In this document: piece by piece, positions 338 to 16,581 of the stretch
Layout of the letters: the number at the start of each line of letters is the position of its first letter
How positions within the stretch are numbered: position 1 is the stretch's first letter
From: a virus
Virus record (IMG/VR): IMGVR_UViG_3300035698_023459
Location: 1-23,220 of that record
Strand: one strand, 5' to 3'
DNA: 23,220 nt
The notes under the pieces: model-generated
The model's input: only the letters and a program-made list of their open reading frames with translations
Told to the model about the DNA's origin: nothing
Databases searched by the model: none
Made by a program: the position numbers and the translations under genes

Positions 338-535
338 TTAGGCTCTAACCACAATCACTACAGGCTTCCCCGAGGATTCACTGAGAGTCCAAGCAGTATT
401 CACAATAGCTTCTTTATCTTCTACCCTTGTAAGATGAAGAGTTCCTGCTACTCCTTTTAGGTTCTTTTTTAATTCTCCAAATAATTCTTTAGTCTGAACG
501 TTGTCTCCAACATTTATTCCTAAATCATCTGCCAT
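338..535 (-). CDS. Small hypothetical protein (65 aa)
   Basis: This is a complete 65-residue frame with a good SD (AGAGGAAAATT before ATG). It follows the glycosyltransferase at 548-1402 by 12 bases and is the last gene before the terminator at 150-193, so it probably closes the transcript. The protein has a charged middle (ELFGELKKNLKG) and ends in a beta-like hydrophobic stretch (KPVVIVVRA). There is no signal peptide, membrane segment or motif I recognise. Size and position would fit a small virion or decoration protein, but that is only inference from context. Confidence 0.65.
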   Translation of the reverse strand: MADDLGINVGDNVQTKELFGELKKNLKGVAGTLHLTRVEDKEAIVNTAWTLSESSGKPVVIVVRA

Positions 536-547
536 AATTTTCCTCTC

Positions 548-1402
548 TTATTTATAAACTCTTCCTGCTTCATCTATATGACCGCAATCTATAGAAGTAT
601 CTACAAGAAATGGAAATTCTTTTTTTCCAAACTTTTTAAATTTCTTTACTCCACAGTTTTCAAATACTTTCTCTTTAACCATTCTATCGCACCAAAATAA
701 ATCTTCCGTTCCGTTCTCAGTTTTGAACTGTAAAGCTTCTGGGTCAAACCAAGCCTTTCTTGGAGTTTCAAAAACTCTTCGGATTACCATTGGTCCACTC
801 ATAGATGAGCAAGTATAAGTTTCAGATTTTTCCCATAAGTGCCGTAGAAGTGAACAATGAATAAGAGTACAACCCATTGGTATTCCATCTACCCAAACCT
901 TTTCACCTTTCTTCCATTTATCATAATAGGAATTTCCTTTGCCTCTAAAAAGAAGAGGCTCTGGATGACTGCCTTTACAAGAATATAATCCTGAGACAAC
1001 TGGAATATCTCCTTTTCTCATATACTCGGTAATCTTCAAAAAAGTATCGGGAGGAAGTAATACATCTTGGTCAATAAAAAATAACCATTCGAATCCCATT
1101 TTTAAAGCATAGTCTACGCAAATATTTCTTGCGTCAGCTACTGCCCAACCTAAAGGAGAGAACTGGTCAAAATATTGAAAGACATCTCCGTTACTCCAAT
1201 TACAAGGAATGACTTGACCGAATCTTGCTAGCACCCATTCTATTCTTACATTACCTGTAGTCGGAACTGCTATACAAATTCTCTTCTTCCAGCCTTCCCA
1301 TAAATCCCTTTTAGGAACAAAACATTTTGGTTGCATATACATTTCTAAATTTTTCTTTTTATTCTTACTAACTACTTTTTTCTTTTTAGCCTTGGTTACC
1401 AT
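548..1402 (-). CDS. GT-A fold glycosyltransferase
   Basis: A 284-residue protein when started at the ATG at 1400-1402, which has a GAGGAGCTCAAT SD. A longer in-frame start at 1447 exists, but it has no SD and overlaps the upstream gene more deeply. The first 20 residues are Lys-rich. A nucleotide-sugar-binding region starts with RICIAVPTTG (41-50), is followed by an ARN signature (91-93), and has a metal-binding DxD-type motif, FFIDQDVLLP, with D111-Q-D113. This arrangement is seen in phage and bacterial GT-A transferases that load sugars onto proteins or glycans. The acceptor-side half (about 130-284) is Cys- and Trp-containing and unassigned. The gene overlaps the methyltransferase upstream by 17 bp, so the two are probably translated together. 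Sugar and acceptor cannot be read from the sequence. Confidence 0.8.
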   Translation of the reverse strand: MVTKAKKKKVVSKNKKKNLEMYMQPKCFVPKRDLWEGWKKRICIAVPTTGNVRIEWVLARFGQVIPCNWSNGDVFQYFDQFSPLGWAVADARNICVDYALKMGFEWLFFIDQDVLLPPDTFLKITEYMRKGDIPVVSGLYSCKGSHPEPLLFRGKGNSYYDKWKKGEKVWVDGIPMGCTLIHCSLLRHLWEKSETYTCSSMSGPMVIRRVFETPRKAWFDPEALQFKTENGTEDLFWCDRMVKEKVFENCGVKKFKKFGKKEFPFLVDTSIDCGHIDEAGRVYK

Positions 1403-1982
1403 ATTGAGCTCCTCTAATTTTCTCGGCTTTAAGCCTTTCATCTTCAATTTTCTTACCTTCTTCTATTGTCATTTTAGAAAGGATAACTTCCATGTTACCA
1501 TTTTCCCACCAAGCATTTCTTTCCAGATACCAAGGTTTAGGTTTATAGATAGCATAAAGAAAATCCTTAGGGTCAAAGTAAGTAAAACTTGCTTGATTGT
1601 ATCCCTTAATATGTGTAGGGTCTTGCCAGAAACCAAAACTCCCCGCATAAGGAGTAGAAATTAAGAGCTGTCCACCTGGTTCCATAACTCTCCACCACTC
1701 ATTAAAGATGTCAATTATCAACCATGGTTTCAAATGTTCAATTAAATGTGAGCACAATATTTGGAAACAACAACTATCTGGTAAAGGGTAAGGAACAGAT
1801 TCAACATCGTGTACAATATCTACTCCCTTACACGGTCTTATATCTAAACCAATATAGTTCGGTTGTTTATTGCTTCCACAGCCACAATCCAATTTTATTC
1901 CGTGCCCATTATCCTTTAAGAGTTTCAGAATATCTTTTTTGGATTTGTAAGTTGGAGAAGTTACAATTTTCTTTTTACTCAT
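1386..1982 (-). CDS. Class I SAM-dependent methyltransferase
   Basis: A 198-residue protein from the ATG at 1980-1982, chosen because GGAGGTCGGT lies immediately upstream; an earlier ATG at 2009 falls in a hairpin and lacks an SD. Residues 30-48 hold the SAM-binding loop (KLDCGCGSNKQPNYIGLDI), with a Gly-rich motif I at 31-36 and the acidic ribose-binding D47. The post-motif II region contains CSHLIEHL (77-84), typical of the methyltransferase-11-like group, and GGQLLISTP is motif III. It overlaps the glycosyltransferase downstream by 17 bp. Likely role: O- or N-methylation of a sugar or peptide in the same modification pathway. Substrate is unknown. Confidence 0.82.
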   Translation of the reverse strand: MSKKKIVTSPTYKSKKDILKLLKDNGHGIKLDCGCGSNKQPNYIGLDIRPCKGVDIVHDVESVPYPLPDSCCFQILCSHLIEHLKPWLIIDIFNEWWRVMEPGGQLLISTPYAGSFGFWQDPTHIKGYNQASFTYFDPKDFLYAIYKPKPWYLERNAWWENGNMEVILSKMTIEEGKKIEDERLKAEKIRGAQYGNQG

Positions 1983-2002
1983 ACCGACCTCCATTAAGTA
2001 AA

Positions 2003-2026
2003 GAGGCACTCCATTACGAGTGCCCC
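2003..2026 (-). terminator. Short GC-rich hairpin after the structural-like gene
   Basis: A 7-bp stem (2005-2011 with 2018-2024, six-base loop) lies between the gene at 2049-2513 and the methyltransferase. On the minus strand it is followed by CTCTTTACTT, a poor U-tract, so it may terminate weakly or protect an mRNA end. Confidence 0.4.
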
Positions 2027-2048
2027 TATAATCTTTGCCTTTTACCTC

Positions 2049-2513
2049 TTAGCTAAATCTAAGTTGATAAGTAGCATTAACATTCTGGTTAGAAGCCCAT
2101 TGAGAAGTAGTGTAAGTAGTACCACATAAAATAGTACCAGCAACACTCGTATTCGCAAGAGCGACGTTTTGAATTGTACAAGTTGAACCCATATCAGAAC
2201 CTGCGAATTGACATGTAGCCTGTAAAGTTTTAGAAGCAACAGCAGTATTGGTTGTAGTGACTCTTGTTCCAGTCTCTCCTTCCAAACTTGTTGCGGTAAC
2301 TCCAGGAGCTGTGCCCGTACCGATTGCCATATGAGTAATTTGTTTAGAACCTGCGACAGCACCGAGTGCTCCCACAATGTAATCTTGGAAACCGAGATTA
2401 ACGACCGTGTTCTGTTTCCAGCCACTGTCGCCAACTATTTTTCCAGTCTTTCCGTCAACGATTTGTGTTCTAACAAATCCCTTGACTTTAAAATGTTCAG
2501 TTTTGCGTCCCAC
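2049..2513 (-). CDS. Probable virion structural protein, Thr/Ser-rich beta protein
   Basis: A 154-residue protein with a GTG start and a strong SD (AAAGGAGGTTCTAATA). The N-terminal third (VKGFVRTQIVDGKTGKI, then GWKQNTVVNLGFQDYIVG) and the following THMAIGTGTAPGV resemble small phage structural proteins that join a short conserved head to a beta-rich body. The second half is rich in Thr, Ser, Ala and Asn and ends in alternating hydrophobic strands (ATYQLRFS), as in fibre or decoration subunits. There is no signal peptide or membrane segment. It is the only structural-looking gene inside the glycosyltransferase/methyltransferase island and has a strong SD, so it is a candidate acceptor of the glycan. 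Structural role is moderately supported; acceptor role is inference. Confidence 0.6.
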   Translation of the reverse strand: MGRKTEHFKVKGFVRTQIVDGKTGKIVGDSGWKQNTVVNLGFQDYIVGALGAVAGSKQITHMAIGTGTAPGVTATSLEGETGTRVTTTNTAVASKTLQATCQFAGSDMGSTCTIQNVALANTSVAGTILCGTTYTTSQWASNQNVNATYQLRFS

Positions 2514-2564
2514 TATTAGAACCTCCTTTCAAATAGACGCATAAGAAAAGATTCACCTATCTTA

Positions 2565-2593
2565 ATTATATTCTTTTTTTCATTTTAAATAAA
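2565..2593 (-). promoter_or_regulatory. Possible promoter before the structural-like gene
   Basis: A perfect TATAAT -10 box (minus strand, 2565-2570) lies about 50 bases before the GTG at 2513. At 17-bp spacing the -35 position reads TTTATT, a poor match. In AT-rich DNA such boxes occur by chance, so this is tentative. Confidence 0.25.
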
Positions 2594-3295
2594 GAGCTTT
2601 TCTTCAGCCTTCAATCTTTTCTCTTCATTTATAAATAATGTTCTGTTCAAAAAAGAATCAGTGTATCTTTCCGTCAGCAAGTTATCTCTTTCACTCTGGA
2701 AGACTTCCCATCTTTCTTTTCCAAAAACTTTTATAATGGATTCGCCTCCGTACCATAATACATTTGTATCAGAACAGAAGACAGATAACCACCAGCTATT
2801 CTCTAACCGTATAAGCCAGTCATCATCTCCTCCCGTAAAAAATTTTTTATCAAAATATCCTATCTCATTAAAACATTGTTTCCTAATTAAACAAAATCCC
2901 ATCTTAATAAATTCTTGTTTACCATCTATCTTATTATACACTCTTCCTTCAATAAAACCAATTCTTTTACCTAAAGTGTAATTCCATAATTTATCTAACC
3001 AGAATTTATCTTTAATAATTGTTTCACTATCTAACAAAGCAAACCAATCACATTTACTTGTTCTAATTGCCAGATTCCTTCCGTCAGCAAAACCTTTTGT
3101 CTTTGTATTCAGAATAAGGTGGTCAATCTTATTATCAAGTAACCATTCTTTAGAGCCATCTTTTGAATTTTGGTCAACCACTATAATTTTGTAAGGCTCT
3201 TCCGTATTTTCTTTTATTGATTTAATGCATTCTTCAATATATCCTAAACCGTTACAATTTAAAATAATGATTTCAATTTCGTTTGCTATATTCAT
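2585..3295 (-). CDS. Family 2 glycosyltransferase
   Basis: A 236-residue GT2-like enzyme. The N-terminal strand EIEIIILNCNGLGYI (6-20) and IIVVDQNSKDGS (37-48) form the classic GT2 nucleotide-binding start. NTKTKGFADGRNLAI (63-77) matches the GT2 NxGxAxGRN region, and the metal-binding motif is LDSE (D89-S-E91), a variant of DxD. GFCLIRKQCFNEIGYFD and GGDDDW (155-160) correspond to the acceptor-side ED-type catalytic region. Its ATG overlaps the stop codon of the 54-codon gene upstream (ATGA), and its AGAGG SD lies inside a predicted hairpin (3299-3382). Membrane segments are absent, so it should be cytosolic. Sugar and acceptor are unknown. Confidence 0.85.
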   Translation of the reverse strand: MNIANEIEIIILNCNGLGYIEECIKSIKENTEEPYKIIVVDQNSKDGSKEWLLDNKIDHLILNTKTKGFADGRNLAIRTSKCDWFALLDSETIIKDKFWLDKLWNYTLGKRIGFIEGRVYNKIDGKQEFIKMGFCLIRKQCFNEIGYFDKKFFTGGDDDWLIRLENSWWLSVFCSDTNVLWYGGESIIKVFGKERWEVFQSERDNLLTERYTDSFLNRTLFINEEKRLKAEEKLFI

Positions 3296-3456
3296 GAAGT
3301 GCCTCTGGAGAAAACCTTTTCAATGATTAGAGTTCGGTTTTTAATAAAACCATACGCAAAGTCTCCCTTCTCCCAGAGGCACAATTTTTTTATATATTGC
3401 AGAGCCTGCAAGGCTATTGCATTAATTGTATTCTCTACTCTCTTATACTTCTTCAT
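3292..3456 (-). CDS. Small basic protein (54 aa) coupled to the GT2 gene
   Basis: This 54-codon frame starts at the ATG at 3454-3456 with a good SD (AAGGAAGT). It ends in a TGA that overlaps the ATG of the GT2 gene, so translation is probably coupled. The product is basic and helical at the start (MKKYKRVENTINAIALQALQ), with no motif I can assign. The reading frame passes through both arms of the inverted repeat at 3299-3382, so translating it would open the hairpin that covers the GT2 SD. It could be a true small protein or mainly a leader peptide controlling the GT2 gene. Frame, SD and overlap support it; function is unknown. Confidence 0.55.
   Translation of the reverse strand: MKKYKRVENTINAIALQALQYIKKLCLWEKGDFAYGFIKNRTLIIEKVFSRGTS
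3299..3382 (-). promoter_or_regulatory. Hairpin covering the GT2 ribosome binding site
   Basis: Inverted repeat arms at 3299-3312 and 3368-3382 pair over 14 bp with one bulged G. On the minus-strand mRNA, the arm next to the GT2 start contains its AGAGG SD. Unless the overlapping 54-codon frame is translated, this SD would be hidden. This is a sequence-based inference. Confidence 0.45.
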
Positions 3457-3466
3457 ACTTCCTTCT

Positions 3467-3631
3467 TTATTTTTTGCAACGATGAATACACTTTACACAA
3501 TTCTCTTCGTAAAATATCATCTGATAAACTTTTGAACTATCTCTAAAATTTTCCCAAGTATAACAACGTCCACAATCTTTTAGCATACACCATTTAGGTG
3601 GTTTGTATCTTGGCTTGTCATTTCCTAACAT
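3467..3631 (-). CDS. Small Cys-rich protein (54 aa), possible metal binder
   Basis: From the ATG at 3629-3631 this encodes 54 residues. That ATG overlaps the stop region of the upstream gene and has AGGAATATT nearby; a longer frame to 3694 has no SD. Six cysteines are arranged C-x4-C-x2-C (15, 20, 23) and C-x2-C-x3-C (45, 48, 52) in a basic protein ending CVKCIHRCKK. The spacing suggests a zinc- or iron-sulfur-binding micro-domain, but I cannot assign a family. It lies between a methyltransferase and the GT2-coupled small gene, so it may be an accessory factor of the modification island. Confidence 0.55.
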   Translation of the reverse strand: MLGNDKPRYKPPKWCMLKDCGRCYTWENFRDSSKVYQMIFYEENCVKCIHRCKK

Positions 3632-4203
3632 TTTTGTAATATTCCTATTCCACAAGGATTGGTCTTTCCAAAAATTTCTATATAGCCAGCCCACTCGGGA
3701 TTCTTTTTTATCTCGTTGAATTTTCTAAATGGTCCATTTCCGTGAGGAACTATATCGTGAAGAATAACTAAGCCTCCACTTCTTACATATTTTTTGTATT
3801 CATCAACATCTGAAGAAACATAAAGATAATCGTGTCGACCATCTATAAATAAAATGTCTGCTTGTTTTTCTTCTAAAGCTAATCCAACTTTTGCTATCGT
3901 TCCCATATCAACACTATTACCAATAATAAATTTTATTTCTTTATCCTCTTTGTATTTTTCTTGAAGCTCTGGAATAAATCCTCTATCGTTAAGGTCAACA
4001 CTAATTAATAATCCATTTTTACTTAAAAGAATTTCTCTCCAGAATCTTAAAGTGCCACCTTTGAAAGTTCCTATTTCGATTATGATTCTTGGTTCAGCCA
4101 TACTTAATGCTGTACTTAACATATTATGTAGTTCAAATTTATTTTGAGCTGGTCCATATTTCTGCTGGCTGAATAATTCATCAAACTTTTTTTGTGATAT
4201 CAT
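3625..4203 (-). CDS. Class I methyltransferase, CmcI/methyltransferase-24 type
   Basis: A 192-residue protein with a strong SD (AAGGAGGAAGAAA). The SAM-binding motif is IIIEIGTFKGG (40-50), followed by the acidic strand end LISVDLNDRG (66-75). ADILFIDGRHDY (115-126) and GGLVILHD (143-150) are the Asp/His signature of the group that includes cephalosporin-hydroxylase-like CmcI proteins and sugar O-methyltransferases. The gene overlaps the preceding methyltransferase by 23 bp. It is a distant relative of the gene at 4894-5505, sharing the FIDG(E/R)H and HD landmarks, so the island has two members of one family. Probable role: O-methylation of a sugar hydroxyl; position and substrate unknown. 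Confidence 0.8.
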   Translation of the reverse strand: MISQKKFDELFSQQKYGPAQNKFELHNMLSTALSMAEPRIIIEIGTFKGGTLRFWREILLSKNGLLISVDLNDRGFIPELQEKYKEDKEIKFIIGNSVDMGTIAKVGLALEEKQADILFIDGRHDYLYVSSDVDEYKKYVRSGGLVILHDIVPHGNGPFRKFNEIKKNPEWAGYIEIFGKTNPCGIGILQKC

Positions 4204-4897
4204 TTTCTTCCTCCTTGCGAGAATCTACTAATTTTTTATATCTTGGGATTAATGCTTTATGAAGGTAAATAAATTCAAGAGAGTCAATAATTTTATCTGC
4301 TAGTAAAGGGTATTTTTCCTTTTCACTTTCTCTTAGAAAGAGGAAAAGATTCTGCCCATACCACCATTGCTTAGTACAATATTTTTTTATTCTATCTCTA
4401 ACATCAACACAACCGAATCCTTTAGATTGAAATTTATTAATCCAATAATCAGGGAACTGCTCATTCACATGGTGCCGTCCTCCTTGTAATGAGATTGCCG
4501 CACTAAATAAAATTAAATCTCCGTGAATTGTTAAGTCCTCTATAAAGGTATCAGCTCTTTCTTCGGATAAATGTTCAGCTACTTCTAAACAAAGAACTAA
4601 ATCAAATTTTCTTTCTAAGTCAAATCTTTTTTCTAAATCTTTAACAATAAATTCTTTTTCATAAACCACTAAAGCTTCATCTTCAATCCATTTACCTTCT
4701 AACCCTACAACATCTTCAACTCCTATATCTTTCAAAACTTTTAGCCAAGCACCTATCCCGCAACCTACATCGAGAGCCGATTTCAAAGGAGGAAGTAACA
4801 AGGAAATATTTTCAAGTATTTTTTTTATGACTACAAAATAAGACTCGGGTAAATTGTAATAATCTTTTGCTTTATATTGTTCTCCGATATTATTCAT
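4181..4897 (-). CDS. SAM-dependent methyltransferase
   Basis: A 238-residue protein with motif I ALDVGCGIGA (41-50), an acidic GLEGKW strand end after it, and LVLCLEVAEHLSEE in the post-II position, as in methyltransferase-11/23-type enzymes. HHVNEQFPDYWINKF and the following aromatic stretch fit a substrate-binding C-terminal region found in phage and cell-wall sugar methyltransferases. The start ATG overlaps the stop of the upstream methyltransferase gene (ATGA), with a modest SD, so translation is probably coupled. The last 23 bp overlap the next methyltransferase. Three methyltransferase genes in a row suggest successive methylations of one glycan. That the enzyme is a methyltransferase is well supported; the substrate is not. 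Confidence 0.82.
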   Translation of the reverse strand: MNNIGEQYKAKDYYNLPESYFVVIKKILENISLLLPPLKSALDVGCGIGAWLKVLKDIGVEDVVGLEGKWIEDEALVVYEKEFIVKDLEKRFDLERKFDLVLCLEVAEHLSEERADTFIEDLTIHGDLILFSAAISLQGGRHHVNEQFPDYWINKFQSKGFGCVDVRDRIKKYCTKQWWYGQNLFLFLRESEKEKYPLLADKIIDSLEFIYLHKALIPRYKKLVDSRKEEENDITKKV

Positions 4898-5505
4898 TTC
4901 TTCACCAAGACTTTTATTCCACAGTGTCCTACTGCGTGGTTAAATTCGCAACATACTTTAAAAGGTGATTTAGCCAAATCATATTCAGCTCCATATTTTA
5001 TTCTATCTTTTACTGGAAGAATGATATCATCTACAGCTCGTCTTACATTACCATTTCTTGTAGCATCGTGCCAAACTATTAAACATTCTTCCCCTAAAAA
5101 TTCTTCATACAATTTAAAATCCGAAGTTGCTCTTTCATAGCTATGCTCTCCGTCTATAAAAAGCAAGTCAACCTTTTTTCCATTTAGTAAATTTCTTGTT
5201 TTTGAAACTGTATCTTCTGATTGACTATCTCCGAGGATAAAATTCATTCTCTCATCATATAAATAAAAATCAATAACTTCTTTTACTTTCCCAAATAATC
5301 CTTGCTCTTCATCGTGTAAATTTATATCTATTCCAATATACTTTCCTTCTTTAGATAACCAAGCATTCCAAAACTTAGTGCTTGAGCCTGTTGCTATTCC
5401 TATTTCAATAGCAACATTAAAAATCTTTTTAGTTCCGTAAAGCCATTGTAGAAATAACTGATGTTCTTTTGAAGCCTCTTTAATCATTTGTAATTTTCTT
5501 TCCAT
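4894..5505 (-). CDS. Class I methyltransferase, CmcI/methyltransferase-24 type
   Basis: A 203-residue protein. Residues 32-40 (AIEIGIATG) form motif I and YIGIDINLHDE (56-66) holds the acidic ribose-binding residue. VDLLFIDGEHSYERA (111-125) and CLIVWHDATRNGN (140-152) are the Asp/His pair typical of this O-methyltransferase-like group. It follows the GT2 gene directly (TAAATG junction) and overlaps the next methyltransferase by an ATGA. The C-terminal part (FNHAVGHCGIKVLVKK) resembles the closing strand of the family. Some relatives are annotated as cephalosporin hydroxylases, but the Gly-rich SAM loop argues for methyl transfer. Substrate unknown. Confidence 0.8.
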   Translation of the reverse strand: MERKLQMIKEASKEHQLFLQWLYGTKKIFNVAIEIGIATGSSTKFWNAWLSKEGKYIGIDINLHDEEQGLFGKVKEVIDFYLYDERMNFILGDSQSEDTVSKTRNLLNGKKVDLLFIDGEHSYERATSDFKLYEEFLGEECLIVWHDATRNGNVRRAVDDIILPVKDRIKYGAEYDLAKSPFKVCCEFNHAVGHCGIKVLVKK

Positions 5506-6207
5506 TTATTTCCATCCAGGTGGTAAAGGGTCAAGTTCAACATTATGCTTTTCTTCGTAGTGTTTTTTATCATCATCTAATGCGCTACTTCTTATAACAC
5601 CCTTTTCACTTCCTCGTCTTGTAGTCTCTCCCCACATATGGATTCCTTCGGCTCTCTCTTCTAATTTTGTTTTAAATCCAGATTCTTTTAATCTATGAAT
5701 AAAATCCGAATCGTCCCAAAACATTTTAAAGCCTATATCAAATTCTCCTATCCTTTCAAATACTTCTTTCCTAAGAAGACACATACAGATTCCATTTGAT
5801 ATATCTTTCGAATCCCAATAACTTCTTATCACAGAATAAACTGCTCCAACACTTTTATCGGTAACCATAGAATCAACCATTCTATTTATAGAATCATTTA
5901 AGGTTATGAATACATCGGAATCCATTAAAAGAAAATTAGCATAGTGTCCATCATTCTGATTTTTTATTTCTTTTAAAATTTCATTCCTTCCTCCAGCTAT
6001 TCCTAAATTTTCATTAAGAGCAACCAAAGTATCTTTCTTTATATCCATAGCTGATAAGATTTCATTAGCAGTCCCATCTGTGCTTCCTTGGTCTATGGCT
6101 ATAACATTAAGATTTATTATTGTAGATTTTCTAAGAAAGAAAAACCAAGGTCTAACAAGTTCCCTATTATTCCTAAACATTACACCGACTGTTAAATTGT
6201 AAGCCAT
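5506..6207 (-). CDS. Family 2 glycosyltransferase, copy B of a tandem pair
   Basis: A 233-residue GT2 enzyme with a clear SD (CGGAGAAATAA). It has VIAIDQGSTDGT (35-46), ENLGIAGGRNEIL (66-78), the metal motif MDSDVF (D96-S-D98), and MFWDDSDF (162-169) as the catalytic region. It aligns without gaps to the neighbouring gene at 6224-6922 over the first 170 residues. My hand count is about 93 identities (roughly 55 percent), so the two are tandem duplicates. Differences cluster in residues 41-66 and 101-140, which could change sugar or acceptor choice. No membrane segments. The shared FRNN...VxPWFxFLRKST start is a useful signature of this pair. Confidence 0.87.
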   Translation of the reverse strand: MAYNLTVGVMFRNNRELVRPWFFFLRKSTIINLNVIAIDQGSTDGTANEILSAMDIKKDTLVALNENLGIAGGRNEILKEIKNQNDGHYANFLLMDSDVFITLNDSINRMVDSMVTDKSVGAVYSVIRSYWDSKDISNGICMCLLRKEVFERIGEFDIGFKMFWDDSDFIHRLKESGFKTKLEERAEGIHMWGETTRRGSEKGVIRSSALDDDKKHYEEKHNVELDPLPPGWK

Positions 6208-6223
6208 TTATTTCTCCGTTGCG

Positions 6224-6922
6224 TTAAGTGTCTTCGTGGTATTTTTTCGGTAAAATTTTATTCCACTTCTTTTCAAAATAAGCTATGTCATGCTTCATAG
6301 CTTTTTTCCTAATCTCTCCCGACTCTGAACCGTAATTTGTAGTCTGTCCCCACATATGAACACTTCTAGCAATAGTGAACGCATTTAACATACCCGTTTT
6401 TCCCATCCTGTCCATAAAATCCGTATCGTCCCAAAACATTTTATAATTTTCGTCAAACTCTCCTATTTGTTCAAAGGCTTCTTTCCTAATCAAACAAAAA
6501 GATATTCCTCTACAGACTCTTACAAAAATGTAGTAGCTTCTAATCTCTCCGTAAACTATTCCAGCTTTTGGAAATTGTACTAAACCTTCTACTAATTTTT
6601 CAATCCCTTTTCTTTCAATAATAAAAACATCACTGTCCATTAATAATAAATTTTCATAACCACCTTGATTAAGCTCTTTCACCTTTTTTAAAATTCTATT
6701 CCTGCCTCCTGCTATTCCTAAATTTACTGGCTCTCTTATTATAAAATCTTTTTGAGGGTCAACACATTTAGTTAATTTATTAAATGTATCATCTAAACTT
6801 CCTTGGTCTATGGCTATAATTGAAAGTGGAATGTCGGTTGATTTTCTAAGAAACCAAAACCAAGGCTCTACAAGTTCCTCGTTATTTCTAAATAATACTC
6901 CAACTCTTACTCCATCAAACAT
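6224..6922 (-). CDS. Family 2 glycosyltransferase, copy A of a tandem pair
   Basis: A 232-residue GT2 enzyme. Its ATG lies in the last codons of the upstream GT gene (8-bp overlap) with a GGAGAACTAT SD. It has IIAIDQGSLDDT (35-46), NLGIAGGRNRIL (67-78), the DSD metal motif at 96-98, and MFWDDTDF (162-169). The C-terminus beyond residue 170 diverges from its paralogue in length and sequence, although both keep a HMWGxTT motif near residue 190. The copies lie head to tail with 16 bases between them. They may add two different residues, or the same residue at two positions, of one glycan. Confidence 0.87.
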   Translation of the reverse strand: MFDGVRVGVLFRNNEELVEPWFWFLRKSTDIPLSIIAIDQGSLDDTFNKLTKCVDPQKDFIIREPVNLGIAGGRNRILKKVKELNQGGYENLLLMDSDVFIIERKGIEKLVEGLVQFPKAGIVYGEIRSYYIFVRVCRGISFCLIRKEAFEQIGEFDENYKMFWDDTDFMDRMGKTGMLNAFTIARSVHMWGQTTNYGSESGEIRKKAMKHDIAYFEKKWNKILPKKYHEDT

Positions 6923-7742
6923 ATAGTTCTCCTGCTTTAATCATATTCTCAATTTCAAATCTAACTGTATGAGAAGTTAATTTAAGGAATTGCCAAAACC
7001 TATGAGTATTCATTCTTTGTTCAAACATTTTCCAATAAAACTTATGGTCACTTTCCATTCTAAAAACCGACTCCCATCTTCCAAATACTCGGCTGTGTCC
7101 AAGGTGAAGACCGTGATAAGAAAAGAAACTATGGTCAGGCATTGGTAATCCCGATTCTTCAACCATAACTCTTAAAGCAAACTGATTATCCATTTTATGA
7201 GACTTCTCGTTCCAAAATTCTAATGGCTTTCTTGTTTTCAGTATATTATAATATTTTTCCATCACAGGCTTCATAGCCTTAAAATATTCTTTTGTTTTGA
7301 AAAAGTGAAGACCTGTAAATCTATGTCCTCGAGTTGCCTTTGGGTCTATTCTGTCAGTGTTACTATAACAAGTATTATGGTCTTTAAGAATTTTTTTATG
7401 CTGAGACAATAGAGAAGGCTCTTCAGGCATAATCCAAAGGTCAATATCTCCGACGTAAATATAATCAAATTCTTCCATCTCTGGAAAATATGAAACCCAT
7501 CTCAAAGTTTTTAATATGTCAGCATCGTCAGGAAAATCTTTAAAACTATTTTGTTGTATCGCAAATTTTGGATTTCTAATATAGTAAAGCATATCACTAA
7601 CCGTTTGAGGTAAAAATCCTTTTATAGCTATGAGGGCATAATACTCGGGATATGACATTTCTAAAAAATGTAAGAAAAAAGGGATATGGTGAGCATACTT
7701 TTCATCTACTACGCAATAGACACAAACTTTTTTATTATCCAT
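6915..7742 (-). CDS. GT-A glycosyltransferase (GT8-like)
   Basis: A 275-residue protein from the ATG at 7740-7742, which sits at proper spacing from AAGGAG; a GTG at 7748 lies too close to this SD. CVYCVVDEKYAHHIPFFLHF (7-26) is the donor-binding start. DYIYVGDIDLWIM (93-105) carries a DID metal-binding motif (99-101). RFTGLHFFKTKEYF is the conserved Thr/Gly acceptor loop, and the C-terminal half is rich in Trp, His and Phe. This layout fits cytosolic GT-A transferases related to GT8 or to putative nucleotide-diphosphosugar transferases. It overlaps the next GT2 gene by 8 bp. Donor and acceptor are unknown; GT-A membership is well supported, exact family less so. Confidence 0.75.
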   Translation of the reverse strand: MDNKKVCVYCVVDEKYAHHIPFFLHFLEMSYPEYYALIAIKGFLPQTVSDMLYYIRNPKFAIQQNSFKDFPDDADILKTLRWVSYFPEMEEFDYIYVGDIDLWIMPEEPSLLSQHKKILKDHNTCYSNTDRIDPKATRGHRFTGLHFFKTKEYFKAMKPVMEKYYNILKTRKPLEFWNEKSHKMDNQFALRVMVEESGLPMPDHSFFSYHGLHLGHSRVFGRWESVFRMESDHKFYWKMFEQRMNTHRFWQFLKLTSHTVRFEIENMIKAGELYV

Positions 7743-7751
7743 TTTCACTCC

Positions 7752-7955
7752 TTATCCAATAGTCATAAAATTTATTGCTTTAGGATTTGGTTTAGCAATT
7801 TTATTTTTATTTAATGACTGTAAAACTTCTATAATAGTTTCCAAAGAATCAAAAGCATATTTTAATTCAGGCAAGAATAAATCCTTGCTAATATTCTTTT
7901 TCATATCATTAGCCCATACCAAAGCCAATTCTATTTTAGTTTTTTCCATTTCCAT
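7752..7955 (-). CDS. Small helical protein (67 aa)
   Basis: A 67-residue frame beginning inside the last 20 bases of the GT9-methyltransferase gene (GGAGAAAATAA before ATG). It ends nine bases before the next GT start. The protein is largely alpha-helical, with amphipathic stretches (ELALVWANDMKKNI, then YAFDSLETIIEVLQSLNK). No family, metal motif or membrane segment is visible. Tight packing between two glycosyltransferase genes and the overlapping start suggest it is translated with them, perhaps as a partner or adaptor. Function unknown. Confidence 0.55.
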   Translation of the reverse strand: MEMEKTKIELALVWANDMKKNISKDLFLPELKYAFDSLETIIEVLQSLNKNKIAKPNPKAINFMTIG

Positions 7956-9678
7956 TTATTTTCTCCAGTGTCATTACAATCATATCTTCTTTTCCCTTTC
8001 TCAATATTGTGCTATGACCAATTCCCCATAAATGCATTTTAGTTTCTCTATGTTCATCTCCTATCGGTAAAGACAATATAATTATTCCATCAGGTTTACA
8101 AACTCTTTCGAGTTCCACTAATCCTTTTGCCATACTTGGAATATGCTCTAAGACTTCTCCACACATTACTGTATCAAAACTATTATCTGGAAATGGAAGG
8201 GAATGTATATCTCCGTACATTGCTTTTAAGCCTTTGTCCAACATTCTTTTTAATCTAATTTTACTTATTTCAATAGCAGTTACGTCATAGCCTTGCTTTG
8301 TTAAGACTTCCACACAATAACCATCTCCAGCTCCGACTTCTAAAACAGTTTTACCTTTTACTTTTGCCATCATTGCGTGAACTCTATCCCACTGCCAAGA
8401 CTCTGCTTTATAATGACTTTTCCCGAGAGGAAGTTCAATTGCGAACTTTTCATTAATGTCATCTTTATCATAATCAAGATGAGCAGGAAGAGGTTTCATT
8501 TTCATTATTTTTTCTATCCCTTTTATTACTTGGTCAGATGTAATCGCATTCATACATTTAACAGGATAGGGATAACCTTCAGGGCACTCTCTAAACCAAT
8601 CATCTTTAGTCCACCATTTACCTCTACATTTAAATGGAGTAACTATGTTTACATTTTCTTTGTAACCAAAAAAGTGAGGAGGGGTTGGACCAAATAAAAT
8701 TACACTTCTTGTTCTTACAGCTCGAGCAACGTGAGCCAATCCAGTCTCTCCGTCTAAATGAAATTGAGCTTGGGAAATCAAAGCAGCAGTTTGTTTTACT
8801 GTCGTCCTTCCTGTAAGGTCTACTACTCCCTCAACTAAAGTTTCATGTTTATTTCCTATCTGAATAACTTTTAATTTTTTTGTCTTTAAATATTTTACAA
8901 CCTCACCCCATTTTTCTGCTGTCCAGCTTTTAGTTTGTCTGGAAATATCCGAACCGTTGTGGAGAGTAACATATTTAGTTCCTTCCATCATTAAACCTAA
9001 AGTAAAGTCATTAGGTGTAAGGTTAATGAATAGGTCATCGTCAGAGCCTTGCAAACCTGCTGTCACTAATGAAAGTTCTCTCTCCGTTACTCTAACCTTC
9101 TGAGATAGTTTATGGTTGCTAGAAGGAAATGCATTGTATAAGGTTTGGTAAGGCTTAAATCTTTCATCGGCTTCATTTTGTTCTTTCTCATATTTCTTTT
9201 TATTCTTATAAAAAACTCTAGTCACATATCTATTGTCATAAATTAAATCAAACTCTTCACTCTGTACTCTTGCTAAAAGATTGCTCCATCCTACATTATT
9301 ACAAATCACTACTCTATCGACTGAAGGGTTGTCTTCAATTATTTCTCTTCCAGTTGTATCTCTTATAAAAAGAGTAATGTGACTGTCGGGAAATTTTCTC
9401 TTAACAGCTTTTGCTATTTTAGCAAGTATGAGAGAATCTCCAAGACCTCCAATCCTAATAAGTGCTATTTTAAATCTTTGACTTTTCTGGACTGGTGTAA
9501 GGAGTTCTTTAACAGTCGGTTGGTTTGCGATTTCTTTCAGGAGTTCTTCAGCAACTTTAGTGGTGTGAACTAAATAGTAAGCATCATTATCCGAGACATC
9601 ATAAACGACTCCAGCCACGTAATGTTTTCCTGCCCAACTATGTTCACCTGACTTCCTCAACAAGCGAATCTTTGGCAT
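7936..9678 (-). CDS. GT9-type glycosyltransferase fused to a SAM methyltransferase
   Basis: A 580-residue three-part protein. Residues 1-50 (MPKIRLLRKSGEHSWAG...) form a small beta domain resembling short phage head-region proteins. Residues 69-395 resemble family 9 (heptosyltransferase-like) GT-B enzymes: FKIALIRIGGLGDSL (69-83), a donor-side DGETGLAH (309-316) in place of the usual D-S/T-G-P-x-H, and a three-Cys region (351, 365, 375) with ECPEGYPYPVKC. Residues 430-575 are a class I methyltransferase with VLEVGAGDG (445-453) and GEVLEHIP (507-514). One chain could therefore transfer a sugar and methylate it. It is the first gene after the capsid gene's terminator and leads the modification island. 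GT9 enzymes normally build LPS cores, so use in a phage suggests a different acceptor. Confidence 0.85.
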   Translation of the reverse strand: MPKIRLLRKSGEHSWAGKHYVAGVVYDVSDNDAYYLVHTTKVAEELLKEIANQPTVKELLTPVQKSQRFKIALIRIGGLGDSLILAKIAKAVKRKFPDSHITLFIRDTTGREIIEDNPSVDRVVICNNVGWSNLLARVQSEEFDLIYDNRYVTRVFYKNKKKYEKEQNEADERFKPYQTLYNAFPSSNHKLSQKVRVTERELSLVTAGLQGSDDDLFINLTPNDFTLGLMMEGTKYVTLHNGSDISRQTKSWTAEKWGEVVKYLKTKKLKVIQIGNKHETLVEGVVDLTGRTTVKQTAALISQAQFHLDGETGLAHVARAVRTRSVILFGPTPPHFFGYKENVNIVTPFKCRGKWWTKDDWFRECPEGYPYPVKCMNAITSDQVIKGIEKIMKMKPLPAHLDYDKDDINEKFAIELPLGKSHYKAESWQWDRVHAMMAKVKGKTVLEVGAGDGYCVEVLTKQGYDVTAIEISKIRLKRMLDKGLKAMYGDIHSLPFPDNSFDTVMCGEVLEHIPSMAKGLVELERVCKPDGIIILSLPIGDEHRETKMHLWGIGHSTILRKGKEDMIVMTLEKINGNGKN

Positions 9679-9749: not shown

Positions 9750-10706
9750 TTAAGTAGAATGTTTAATATTCAGAATCTCTACAGCTGCTGTCTCTTCTTC
9801 AAGCTGGACATCTAACCGCATTGTCATTGTAACTTCGACAATTCTTTTTCTCGGTTGTCTCATCATTTCATAAGTGATATCCCTATGAACACCAAAAAGG
9901 ATATTCTTAGGATTGATAAGCAAACCTTTAGAGCCATTAACTGTAGGTGTACCAGAAGTAACATCTTCAGTTGTAATAGCTGGAACTTTTCTTACAGTTA
10001 CACCCTGAAAATATGGGTCTCTGTTTTCTATCAGATAACGTGTAAAAGCTTCGTTAACATTTTTATCTGCAAGAGATTTGATATAATCAAGCCTTGCTTT
10101 ATGAGAGACATAAAATCTTACATCATCTTCTATGTCCATAAATTTTCCAGGCATAAGCTTAAGAGCATTAAATAAAATTTCATCGCTCAGAGTTGTTGCT
10201 CCACCTGCGTCATAAGAATAAGTTGATATCTGTTTGAAGACACCATTAAGAATGTCCAGATATGTACTTGTTGCACCACCTGTATCACCGTTAAGAATAA
10301 GCTTATCAAGTTCAAAAGCTATTTCTTTTGCGGTAAGTGCCATAATTGTATTAAAGATTCCAGCACCCTCTATAGAATCTTCCATAGAATCATAACCGAT
10401 ATCAATAGCACAGATGACTTCTTTCGCATCAAGTGTAACTTTTGAAGTAGTCGGTTTTGTAGTAGTCGTTGGAGCTGTGCCAATAGCAGGAGGAGTCTGA
10501 AGAATATCAGAACCATAAGTTATTTTATCAACCTGTTTTTTGTCACCCTTCATAGGTTCTCTACGACACTCAGGAAGTATAACAGACTTGTCTATAATTC
10601 CCTGTACGAATTTTGCAGCCTGAGTAGGCTCTAGCAATCCACCCGACGCCAAATCAGATGACGTAAAAGCAGTTTTCAGTATTTCATCGATTGTAACCTT
10701 AGACAT
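9750..10706 (-). CDS. Major capsid protein, HK97 fold
   Basis: A 318-residue protein with a near-perfect SD (AAAGGAGG), as expected for the most abundant virion protein. Features of HK97-fold capsids are visible: an N-terminal helix-rich arm (to about residue 45), LPECRREPM at the start of the folded core, a Thr-rich loop (IGTAPTTTTKPTTSK, 75-89), a spine-like helix region (AKEIAFELDKLILNGDT), and NPKNILFGVHRDITYEM followed by beta strands near the C-terminus, common in P-domain/A-domain ends. It follows the scaffold gene and has its own terminator. The N-terminal 30-45 residues are short compared with delta-domain capsids, which fits use of a separate scaffold protein. Assembly is into the prohead in the cytosol, with maturation likely aided by the XkdF-type protease. 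Confidence 0.88.
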   Translation of the reverse strand: MSKVTIDEILKTAFTSSDLASGGLLEPTQAAKFVQGIIDKSVILPECRREPMKGDKKQVDKITYGSDILQTPPAIGTAPTTTTKPTTSKVTLDAKEVICAIDIGYDSMEDSIEGAGIFNTIMALTAKEIAFELDKLILNGDTGGATSTYLDILNGVFKQISTYSYDAGGATTLSDEILFNALKLMPGKFMDIEDDVRFYVSHKARLDYIKSLADKNVNEAFTRYLIENRDPYFQGVTVRKVPAITTEDVTSGTPTVNGSKGLLINPKNILFGVHRDITYEMMRQPRKRIVEVTMTMRLDVQLEEETAAVEILNIKHST

Positions 10707-13761: not shown

Positions 13762-16581
13762 TTATTTCCTCACCGTAGTGATTAATTTAGTTGGAGCATT
13801 AACATAAGCATCTTTTTTAAGAAAATTCTTTTTAATGAAATCTATTTTTTCTTTAATTAATCCTGTATTTAAAAGCTTTTTATTGGGAGCCAACATAAAA
13901 GCAAAGGTCTCAGCAAAATCCTCTTCCCAACTCATCATAGCATAGTCTGAAACATAATTCCCTCTTACAGCAGGGGCAGGACAACCTGCGCCACCTTTAG
14001 ATTGCTTATACAATTCTTTCCATTCTGTAAAAAGTTCTCCCTTGCCTAAATCATCATTCCCAAAAGCACGAAAATGAATATTATGTCCCATCTCGTGAAT
14101 TAAATTTTCATCCACTACTGTTGCCTTCCTTAAAAAAGCTGTATGTGGAAATTCCATTCCTGCGGGAGTGATTGTTAAAAAGGAATCTTCAATTTCAGAA
14201 TACTGAGTGTAAACAGCAGCAAGTCGATTCTTCGGTCTACCCGCATTATAAAATTTATCATATCGAGTGCCTCGAACTATGTCTCCACCCTTTTTAAATC
14301 CTTTTAATTTGAAAGCTTTAAAATCTACATTCGCTTGTACGGTTCCATAGGATAATTTTAATTGTCTCATTCTCATTAAGACATTAAGCTCATTATAAGG
14401 GTGTTTTGTTTTTCCTATATTGCTTATAGCAGGTCTCCACCAACTACTTTTTTTGATATCTGTTCCATATCTTCTCTTTATATTTTTATCATAATCAGAA
14501 AGCAATCTTTTTAAATCATCTTCACTATCAATGTCATAGCCTCTGCTTCGGTAACGTGATTCCATTCTATCTATCGAACCGTATTCACCTTTCACTGGTT
14601 TATAGGTCGGAACTTTTCTTGCTATGTATCCTTCCTTTTTTATATATTTTAAATGGGCTGTTAAAGCATCGGCTTGTTTTATTACTTCTTTTGTCACTTT
14701 CGGATTTACTGGTAAGATTTCTCTTGCTAATTTCTTCGAAGCCATCTTTGTATCAATCTCTTCTAAGACTACAGTAACAGGGTTTGTCTTTTCTCCAGCC
14801 CAAGCTCTATTTGTTTTTATCCTTCCCAAATTTTCTCTCGTATTATTTCCCATCTCAACTCTTTTAACTTTATAAGTTCCTTTTACTATTTCCTCTTTTT
14901 GATTCCAAGGTGAAAAAGGAGAAACATTTATGCCGTGTCTTTTCCCTTCTATCTTATAGACAACACTAATGCCTTCAGTCATATCTCTTTTACTTGCTCC
15001 AGCAATTCTTCCTTCCGCAAATTTATGAGCCTTGTCGAAGTCTCGAGTGAATGAGCTTAGAGGCATAGACATTTTTTCTCCAGCTTTCGGAAGGGAACCA
15101 ACCTTTGGATTTTTCATCCACACTCCTCTAAAGATTTCATTCTCAACTACTACCGAATTTTCAACTGCCGTACTTAAACTTTTTGCCATCTCTTCGGCTT
15201 TAGAAAATGTTAAGCCTTGGTTTGTATAGTCTTTACTAAATGGCATTTTTACATCGGCTGAATTTATAAATCCATCTCTCTTTAATTTTCCATTACGTTG
15301 TTGCTTGGCTAATCTATATGCCGCATTACTACTTCCTGTCCTATCTAAACTAGCAGAGATTGTTCTTATATCTTTATACATTCCTTGAGTATAGTAGGCT
15401 GTAGCATCCATAAGATTTTTTGCTACTGGATTTGATTTATATTCTTGACCCCAACGTTTCTTTACTCTTCCAGTCATTCCTCTTCCAGTCATTCCAGACA
15501 TATCTTTAGAAAAATCAGTCATAGTATCGAGGTCATTATTTGGGTCTGCTCCTCCCGTCCAAGCTTGCGATTCAAGAGGCTTAGAATCTGTTTCAATTAC
15601 AGGAAGCTCAGCACATCTACAATTTATTACTTCCTCGGGTGGCCCAGATGGGTCAAGAGGATGGAGCAATATATTTCCATTTCCCATATCGAAGTATTCA
15701 TCGATTCCAATAGCAGGAGAAGCATCGGCAAATAAATGACTCTCTCTAGTGGCTTCATCTGCTATTGCTAACCATTTTTTCTTTTTAATTTTATTTTTTT
15801 TATATGTTTCATGAGATGTAGAAGATTGGATTGTTCCAGTTTCTGTTCTTGCTATTGTCATACTTCTATTCTTATATGTCTGTTCAAACATTCCCTTTAT
15901 TCTTTTGTTAACTTCATACGGACTCATTCCTTGTTCCATATAAGATTTATACAACACCCTTTTAAAATCTTTTAAGGTCTTGTTACTTATTCCTCCCGTA
16001 ATTTTAACACCTCTGGATTTCATATTAGCAATCATAGCTGGATTTTTTAAATGGAAGGCTAAAGAAAATCCAAGCTTCCTTAATGATTCATTACCTGCTA
16101 TATTTGCCGCAATCGGATAATACTTATCAAAGACTTTTTTCATTTTCTCTGGCTTAACATTTTTATCCCATCCACTAATGTATTCATCTAATAAGTTTTG
16201 TTCTTCGTCAGATATTTTTCTCTTCTCGAATACAAGCTTATTGTCCACAGTAACTTTCAACACGGTTCTCGGTAATGTTAAGCCACACTTGTTACAATTA
16301 AAAACAAATTCTAAATCCTGTATAGGCTCGGCACATATACAAAATTTTCTTTTCTTATCGTACAGGTCTGGATAATGAGACTCACTATACTTAACTAATT
16401 TTTTCGAAATTTTATCGTGATAACTTATTGTTGCTAACTTTTCTCTTTGGAACTCTCGGTAGACTGCTTTCATAAAATTATGAAGTAACTTCTTAGTGGC
16501 AGGTGTATCCTTCTTTAAAAATGTGATACCCTTTGTTGCTTTCTTTCGATATTCGATTACTTGTTTTTTATGTCTTATCAC
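13762..16581 (-). CDS. MuF head protein with ART-like and lethal-factor-like protease domains
   Basis: A 939-residue protein with a GTG start inside the previous small gene. Residues 81-99 hold a four-Cys zinc knuckle (CIC, CNKC). Residues 236-330 are the MuF core, with TIARTETGTIQSS, HPLDPSGPPEE and the closing NCRC (320-323). Residues 390-580 look like an ADP-ribosyltransferase: FRGV with R485, SSFTRD at 509-514 as the S-x-S-like strand, and QKEEIVKGT with Q561-x-E563 as the likely catalytic pair. Residues 790-930 look like an anthrax-lethal-factor-type metalloprotease: HEMGH (829-833), then Y880 and E887 spaced as in lethal factor (DYAMMSWEEDFAETFA). MuF proteins are minor head proteins carried in the capsid, and long ones are known toxin carriers. 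Two different enzymatic domains in one chain is unusual. Confidence 0.85.
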   Translation of the reverse strand: MIRHKKQVIEYRKKATKGITFLKKDTPATKKLLHNFMKAVYREFQREKLATISYHDKISKKLVKYSESHYPDLYDKKRKFCICAEPIQDLEFVFNCNKCGLTLPRTVLKVTVDNKLVFEKRKISDEEQNLLDEYISGWDKNVKPEKMKKVFDKYYPIAANIAGNESLRKLGFSLAFHLKNPAMIANMKSRGVKITGGISNKTLKDFKRVLYKSYMEQGMSPYEVNKRIKGMFEQTYKNRSMTIARTETGTIQSSTSHETYKKNKIKKKKWLAIADEATRESHLFADASPAIGIDEYFDMGNGNILLHPLDPSGPPEEVINCRCAELPVIETDSKPLESQAWTGGADPNNDLDTMTDFSKDMSGMTGRGMTGRVKKRWGQEYKSNPVAKNLMDATAYYTQGMYKDIRTISASLDRTGSSNAAYRLAKQQRNGKLKRDGFINSADVKMPFSKDYTNQGLTFSKAEEMAKSLSTAVENSVVVENEIFRGVWMKNPKVGSLPKAGEKMSMPLSSFTRDFDKAHKFAEGRIAGASKRDMTEGISVVYKIEGKRHGINVSPFSPWNQKEEIVKGTYKVKRVEMGNNTRENLGRIKTNRAWAGEKTNPVTVVLEEIDTKMASKKLAREILPVNPKVTKEVIKQADALTAHLKYIKKEGYIARKVPTYKPVKGEYGSIDRMESRYRSRGYDIDSEDDLKRLLSDYDKNIKRRYGTDIKKSSWWRPAISNIGKTKHPYNELNVLMRMRQLKLSYGTVQANVDFKAFKLKGFKKGGDIVRGTRYDKFYNAGRPKNRLAAVYTQYSEIEDSFLTITPAGMEFPHTAFLRKATVVDENLIHEMGHNIHFRAFGNDDLGKGELFTEWKELYKQSKGGAGCPAPAVRGNYVSDYAMMSWEEDFAETFAFMLAPNKKLLNTGLIKEKIDFIKKNFLKKDAYVNAPTKLITTVRK

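Follow-up and report, generated by a model that had tools for sequence, protein, structure and literature searches.

The window analysed here, that is, the full 23,220 bases of IMG/VR record IMGVR_UViG_3300035698_023459, is a genome fragment of an uncultivated tailed phage (guanine-plus-cytosine content ~34%) and carries an island of glycosyltransferase (GT) and methyltransferase genes beside its major capsid gene. The island has a two-part structure, with a constant trio of genes (the triad) encoding a predicted virion protein (S), a putative methyltransferase (M), and a GT-A-type candidate glycosyltransferase (G), and with a variable insert of further enzymes. It is probably a virion-glycosylation locus, in which S-M-G modifies a fibre-type protein and the variable insert elaborates an O-methylated glycan. 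The initial annotation had recognized the enzymes, but omitted S (2049-2513), some of the small open reading frames (ORFs), and the two-part structure.

The linkage of the three genes was followed in related contigs (L and G numbers below), all of which are metagenomic fragments. Two scans, one with S and one with G, each blind to the other triad genes and reaching close and medium relatives, yielded 51 contigs (41 non-redundant) and 67 non-redundant loci, respectively. M lies downstream of S in 39 of the 41 non-redundant contigs, the exceptions being L014 and L027, the latter a contig that stops 319 bp after S, and G comes after M on every contig that extends far enough. Approached from G, M and S were found upstream, in the same order, in all 57 loci with 3.5 kb of upstream sequence, and S was present in 60 of the 61 loci with 1.5 kb. 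Gene content, gene order, this linkage, the selection acting on the genes, and the predicted fold of S were established directly.

Furthermore, the triad occurs on contigs with a lambda-J-like siphovirus tail tip protein (G003, G006, G012, and weakly G032), with a myovirus baseplate wedge protein (G013, G051, and G007), and with a T7-type podovirus head-tail connector (G023, 1e-124; G048). Its surroundings also vary, with the triad directly after baseplate genes in L029 and after a different capsid family in L021, where a GT4-like gene adjoins S. The linkage of S, M, and G in dozens of unrelated phages suggests that these phages decorate their own particles with methylated sugars, in some relatives possibly sulfated. 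Among 50,697 phage records, S gave one weak match, G one weak pair, and M eight partial matches; pattern scans of 84,980 genomes with S and with the capsid protein found none, both weak negatives. The triad thus appears essentially absent from cultured phages.

S is predicted to be a small, beta-rich particle protein of the neck, arm, or fibre type. Its AlphaFold model, built from 39 homologues, has a predicted local distance difference test (pLDDT) score of 81.8, and superseded a poor model from 14 sequences (pLDDT 64). The strongest structural matches of the model are the HFTV1 tail (9h4p_BD, Z 12.0), the phi812 baseplate arm (9fko/9euf, 10.3/10.0), the Bas63 connector (9mt4, 10.0), A511 gp105 (9.9), the Sf14 neck (9c39, 9.7), and the GP4 fibre-tail adaptor (8jou, 8.1). 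All strong matches are thus phage neck, baseplate-arm, or fibre-junction proteins, and the first unrelated fold follows at Z 5.2; in BFVD, the informatively named matches are mostly tail fibre or tail-collar fibre proteins. A profile search of the PDB with S revealed no sequence relation to any solved neck, arm, or adaptor protein. S is 35-86% identical across 38 relatives; among the close relatives retrieved first, the identity is 75-86%, compared with 56-80% for the capsid proteins.

The genes of the island are listed in Table 1. From the capsid gene to the contig end, the sequence encodes five methyltransferase domains and six GT candidates, all co-directional on the minus strand, as had been proposed. 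The five S-adenosylmethionine (SAM)-methyltransferase-like domains were borne out by Pfam matches at five sites, whereas the count of six GT domains held in part: four are certain (one GT9 and three GT2), 548-1447 (G) is supported by a sub-threshold score, and 6915-7748 is a candidate by its motifs. In the latter, GD[IV]D, TGLHF, DNQ, and GLHLGHSR are invariant or conserved across five homologues; no family match was found in Pfam, PHROGs, NCBIfam, or the PDB, where its profile retrieved only dehydrogenase matches, judged to be due to chance. In 13 aligned members, D128, D249, and H290 of G and the LDxGCG motif of M are invariant, and the G of one close relative gives weak GT2/Anp1 matches. 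Two of the methyltransferases (4894-5505 and 3625-4203) match the rhamnosyl-O-methyltransferase/CmcI family. The adjoining GT2 genes 6224-6922 and 5506-6207 share 51% identity and are a tandem duplicate, which indicates that part of the island grew by tandem duplication. The GT9-methyltransferase fusion (7936-9678) is also carried by L005, at 64% identity, and a GT2 like 2585-3295 stands beside S or one gene off in most close relatives. The ratio of nonsynonymous to synonymous substitution rates (dN/dS) is well below 1 for every testable island gene pair, at ~0.03-0.25 for enzymes with unsaturated dS, indicating that these are working genes.

Table 1. Island genes and the bordering capsid gene in the window, in order from the capsid gene
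Position	Strand	Feature	Evidence or occurrence
9750..10706	-	Major capsid protein, upstream island border	PF05065 2e-9, PHROG 1623 2.2e-66
7936..9678	-	GT9-methyltransferase fusion, directly after capsid	Glyco_transf_9 1.4e-15; Methyltransf_11 1.7e-20 (C-terminal half)
7752..7955	-	Small ORF, 67 aa, without family	Window only, not in relatives compared
6915..7748	-	Probable GT-A glycosyltransferase, without known family	Motifs only
6224..6922	-	GT2 glycosyltransferase	PF00535 1.4e-7
5506..6207	-	GT2 glycosyltransferase	PF00535 3.6e-11
4894..5505	-	Methyltransferase, Methyltransf_24 / rhamnosyl-O-methyltransferase-like	PF13578 1.1e-15, PF04989 1.5e-7
4181..4897	-	Methyltransferase, Methyltransf_23	PF13489 4.9e-9
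3625..4203	-	Methyltransferase, Methyltransf_24 / rhamnosyl-O-methyltransferase-like	PF13578 8.7e-13, PF04989 5.7e-12
3467..3694	-	Small Cys-rich ORF (CMLKDCGRCY...CVKCIHRC), before the GT2 adjoining S	Same place in L006, L008
2585..3295	-	GT2 glycosyltransferase adjoining S	PF00535 3.6e-18
2049..2513	-	S, predicted 154-aa fibre/neck-type virion protein, first triad gene	AlphaFold fold, structural matches
1386..2009	-	M, putative SAM-dependent methyltransferase, second triad gene	Methyltransf_11 1.7e-4, just above cut-off
548..1447	-	G, putative GT-A-type glycosyltransferase, third triad gene	GT2 19.2 bits, PHROG 1574 2.6e-6
338..535	-	65-aa ORF, follows G in most close relatives	ORF list, relatives' gene order

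The main genes of the window, on the minus strand, encode a terminase small-subunit-like protein, the terminase large subunit, the portal, a MuF protein, an XkdF-type protease, a scaffold, and the major capsid protein, followed by the island. By gene order, the island is an insertion between the capsid and head-completion genes, in agreement with the initial annotation, because cultured relatives have head-completion genes at this site and three related contigs have an empty gap. Indeed, in Vibrio phage V-YDF132 and Streptomyces phage Braelyn, head-completion adaptor or tail genes stand shortly after the capsid gene, the closest cultured capsid relatives being ~32% identical or less. In L014, L027, and L028, which group together as a single clade in a tree of the capsid proteins (support 95/92), capsid and S are separated by 163-219 bp with no gene between. 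In the 69-kb contig G003, two head-tail adaptors, a neck protein, the tape measure, and the lambda-J-like protein all lie downstream of island and triad, with fibre-like giants of 1919 and 1280 aa between the triad and the head-tail adaptors. Across relatives, the capsid-S stretch holds from 0 to ~12 genes: a single GT2 in L016, GT9 and GT2 in L009 and L015, and long enzyme sets in the window, L005, L008, L012, L023, and L026. The search for the same arrangement in related phages, as the initial annotation had advised, found a similar order (GT9, GT-A, GT2, methyltransferases, GT2, S, M, G) in most close relatives with long islands. The capsid protein alone and the GT9-methyltransferase alignment, used as scan queries, retrieved one relative each.

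No nucleotide-sugar synthesis genes were seen in the window, as stated in the initial annotation, which had concluded that host donors would be used; this does not extend to the relatives, some of which carry donor genes of their own. A nucleoside diphosphate (NDP)-sugar epimerase/dehydratase lies shortly before S, inside the island, in L023, and RmlB-like and/or RmlA-like genes are present in G005, G006, and G010, pointing to 6-deoxyhexoses as the probable sugars. Relatives also have TylF-like methyltransferases. In L005, the island contains a GT4 and a sulfotransferase as well as an adenosine 5'-phosphosulfate (APS) kinase (3.7e-21) with an NMNAT-like domain fused to it; the sulfotransferase scores at the cut-off (Sulfotransfer_1, 1.3e-4, 21.9 vs 22 bits) and has no PDB sequence match. 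In L028, the triad is followed by genes for an APS kinase (APS_kinase, 9e-32), a sulfotransferase (Sulfotransfer_3, 4e-7), and a TauE-type exporter. Both contigs thus have an APS kinase next to a sulfotransferase, the sign adopted here for sulfation dependent on 3'-phosphoadenosine 5'-phosphosulfate (PAPS). Taken together, these accessory genes suggest an O-methylated, probably deoxyhexose-containing glycan that may be sulfated in a few phages. To our knowledge, there is no precedent for sulfated virions, and a literature search on sulfated or methylated phage virions returned nothing relevant.

We infer the acceptor, the sugar, the reaction order, and the benefit as follows. G, as a GT-A enzyme, would most likely add a sugar to S or to the appendage of S, and M would most likely O-methylate that sugar, both assignments resting on the obligate linkage. 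The GT9-methyltransferase fusion and the GT-A and GT2 enzymes of the insert would then lengthen or branch the glycan, and the rhamnosyl-O-methyltransferase-like enzymes would cap it with methyl groups. Relatives would vary this outcome by gaining or losing genes, with some adding nucleotide-sugar enzymes and L005 adding the APS kinase and sulfotransferase. Synthesis of the glycan would take place in the host cell, ahead of or during particle assembly, and the product would shield the particle or tune adsorption.

Several other genes accompany the triad and the insert. HNH homing-endonuclease genes of one family occupy precisely the gap from S to M in 12 of 87 non-redundant loci (L008:10597-11178, L013:10513-11259, L015, L016, L018, L028, L044, L047, L053, L087, L096, and L106), and never lie between M and G; they may help to move the cassette. 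Directly upstream of S, most close relatives have a ~103-aa ORF (L008:9619-9930, L009-L013, L015, and L023-L026), which is missing in the window and lies far downstream of G in L031, L032, and L036. It is possibly another appendage part; a likeness to the baseplate BppU N-domain, noted by eye, received no support from a PDB profile search. Giant proteins of 1.9-2.0 thousand amino acids are encoded shortly after the triad (L010:14029-19788 and L016:14498-20407, the L016 one with LamG/DUF2341), and are probably fibres or adhesins. Unusual island cargo includes uridine-kinase-like and radical-SAM/SPASM proteins in L013 (4347-4991 and 6427-7401) and two papain-like cysteine peptidases in L008 (4985-6233), and a further GT9-like protein (L062:17743-18810, 7e-6) is encoded past the tail genes of G003.

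The initial annotation left open whether a methylated oligosaccharide would be placed on the virion or on the host surface, and the virion is favoured here by the linkage to S in three morphotypes and by the site among head genes. That the enzymes instead alter the glycans of the host surface, whether in an infected cell or in a lysogen, for superinfection exclusion or an O-antigen-like conversion, we consider improbable. GT9 is the heptosyltransferase family, sets of GT2 and methyltransferase genes are typical of surface-polysaccharide loci, and some relatives carry NDP-sugar genes; however, the strict link with a fibre-type virion protein argues against a host-surface role, as does the position among head genes, and no flippase, polymerase, or GtrA/GtrB Pfam match was found among the scanned island proteins, a set that takes in few of the small ORFs. 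Nor does the island look like one that occurs only in prophages, the finding that the initial annotation had named as counting against it: an integrase was found in one of 23 related contigs, which are fragments, and the two pattern-based genome scans brought up no prophage, again weak negatives. A loose cargo region of chance acquisitions with no common pathway seems very improbable; the content does vary among relatives, with proteases, homing endonucleases, and a radical-SAM protein among the cargo, but the similar gene order in most close relatives with long islands and the purifying selection on all genes speak against it. Least credible of all is a role in modifying the bases of phage DNA. 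Phage GTs acting on hypermodified bases are established for T4-type phages, but no gene of the thymidylate-synthase/hydroxymethylase family (PF00303) was found in the 23 related contigs, which are fragments and would not reveal other routes, and several of the methyltransferases match sugar O-methyltransferase families, while GT2 and GT9 enzymes act on glycans.

A different question is whether S is itself the substrate. Virion glycosylation might have the major capsid protein, the tail tube, or the adjoining giant fibre proteins as acceptor, with S a mere structural neighbour, a variant that we hold to be rather unlikely. The variable insert borders the capsid gene, the acceptors in mycobacteriophages are capsid and tail-tube proteins according to the account in PMC12363180, and giant proteins, LamG-bearing in L016, follow the triad. 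M and G, however, follow S also beside unrelated capsid genes or baseplate genes (L029), and the linkage, being kept whatever the neighbourhood, points to S.

Several observations weigh against virion glycosylation through S-M-G. The score of M for Methyltransf_11 is marginal, and G falls below the Pfam GT2 gathering threshold (19.2 vs 23.3 bits), as do the G proteins of relatives. In L014, S is conserved although neither M nor G is present in the 3 kb to the contig end, so S may not need them; a comparison of this S with the others did not reveal any residue whose loss would point to an acceptor site. Being uncultivated, the phages are known here from their genes, from which glycan and acceptor alike are deduced. 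The weakest step is the identity of the acceptor: linkage shows a joint action of S, M, and G but does not show S to be the substrate, and the true acceptor may instead be a protein encoded near S, among the capsid, tail, or giant fibre proteins. A bolder version of the virion-glycosylation reading, which we put forward as tentative, sees S-M-G as a transferable, self-sufficient "glyco-appendage" cassette: a fibre-type virion protein would move among sipho-, myo-, and podoviruses together with a dedicated glycosyltransferase and methyltransferase, with possible help from the homing endonucleases found between S and M. The variable island would then be a plug-in set whose enzymes upgrade the glycan with methyl groups, deoxysugars, and, in a subset of phages, sulfate.

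Virion glycosylation has been documented for few phages. The triad is nearly unbreakable in dozens of uncultivated phages that span three tail types, yet cultured collections almost lack it, which points to an apparently widespread mode of dressing the particle that has gone unstudied. The triad is a small, testable three-gene system, and could serve as a marker for glycosylated, possibly sulfated, virions in metagenomes.

Away from the island, the MuF head-morphogenesis protein of the window (13762-16581, minus strand) is very long, at 939 aa, with extra C-terminal domains. Its C-terminal part has a weak metallopeptidase-like match and, by eye, an ADP-ribosyltransferase-like stretch that is clearer in L005:3088-5622; the protein looks like a MuF-linked effector active in the bacterial host. 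In addition, the terminase large subunit gene at L005:1-1464 has an in-frame insertion resembling an intein with an endonuclease region.

Several known systems resemble parts of the locus. Neck, baseplate-arm, and fibre-adaptor proteins share the predicted fold of S (Z 8-12) without sequence similarity; S differs in its genetic linkage with a methyltransferase and a GT. The podovirus ctKR88 (Manatee Spring) has several GT and methyltransferase genes near its structural genes, as here, but a detectable relationship is limited to its methyltransferase and M, and no S was recognized by protein search. Caudoviricetes sp. vir323 (Methanobacteriales host) encodes, among its structural genes, a PHROG 1574 protein that is weakly related to G (32% over 87 aa) but shorter, and no S was recognized there. 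Compared with the PDB, the G profile brought up a single sequence, A197 of STIV, aligned over the DxD region. A197 is a GT-A-type protein from an archaeal virus whose capsid is glycosylated; with an E-value of 0.17, an hhalign probability of 37%, and a different virus realm, it is a lead rather than a relationship.

The initial annotation had pointed to mycobacteriophages, and the analogy is a functional one. In Che8, Corndog, and Myrna, phage-encoded GTs glycosylate the capsid and tail-tube proteins (Freeman et al., 2023, as related in PMC12363180 and PMC11256854), and, as here, where four GT matches are significant, several such enzymes are found per genome. By sequence reading, Che8 gp108 also appears to join a GT2 to a TylF/Methyltransf_24-type domain. 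The precedent does not extend to homology or position, with the Che8 GT genes at the right genome end rather than beside the capsid gene. Against the island GTs, Che8 gp108-110 gave no convincing blastp match and weak GT2/GT-A profile scores of 10-16 bits, with gp110 showing a weak GT-A similarity to G. The mycobacteriophage system has no protein S and far fewer enzymes, and no sulfation genes are listed for it. By analogy, the S-M-G locus thus appears functionally like mycobacteriophage virion glycosylation, not as a close homologue but as a counterpart tied to S.

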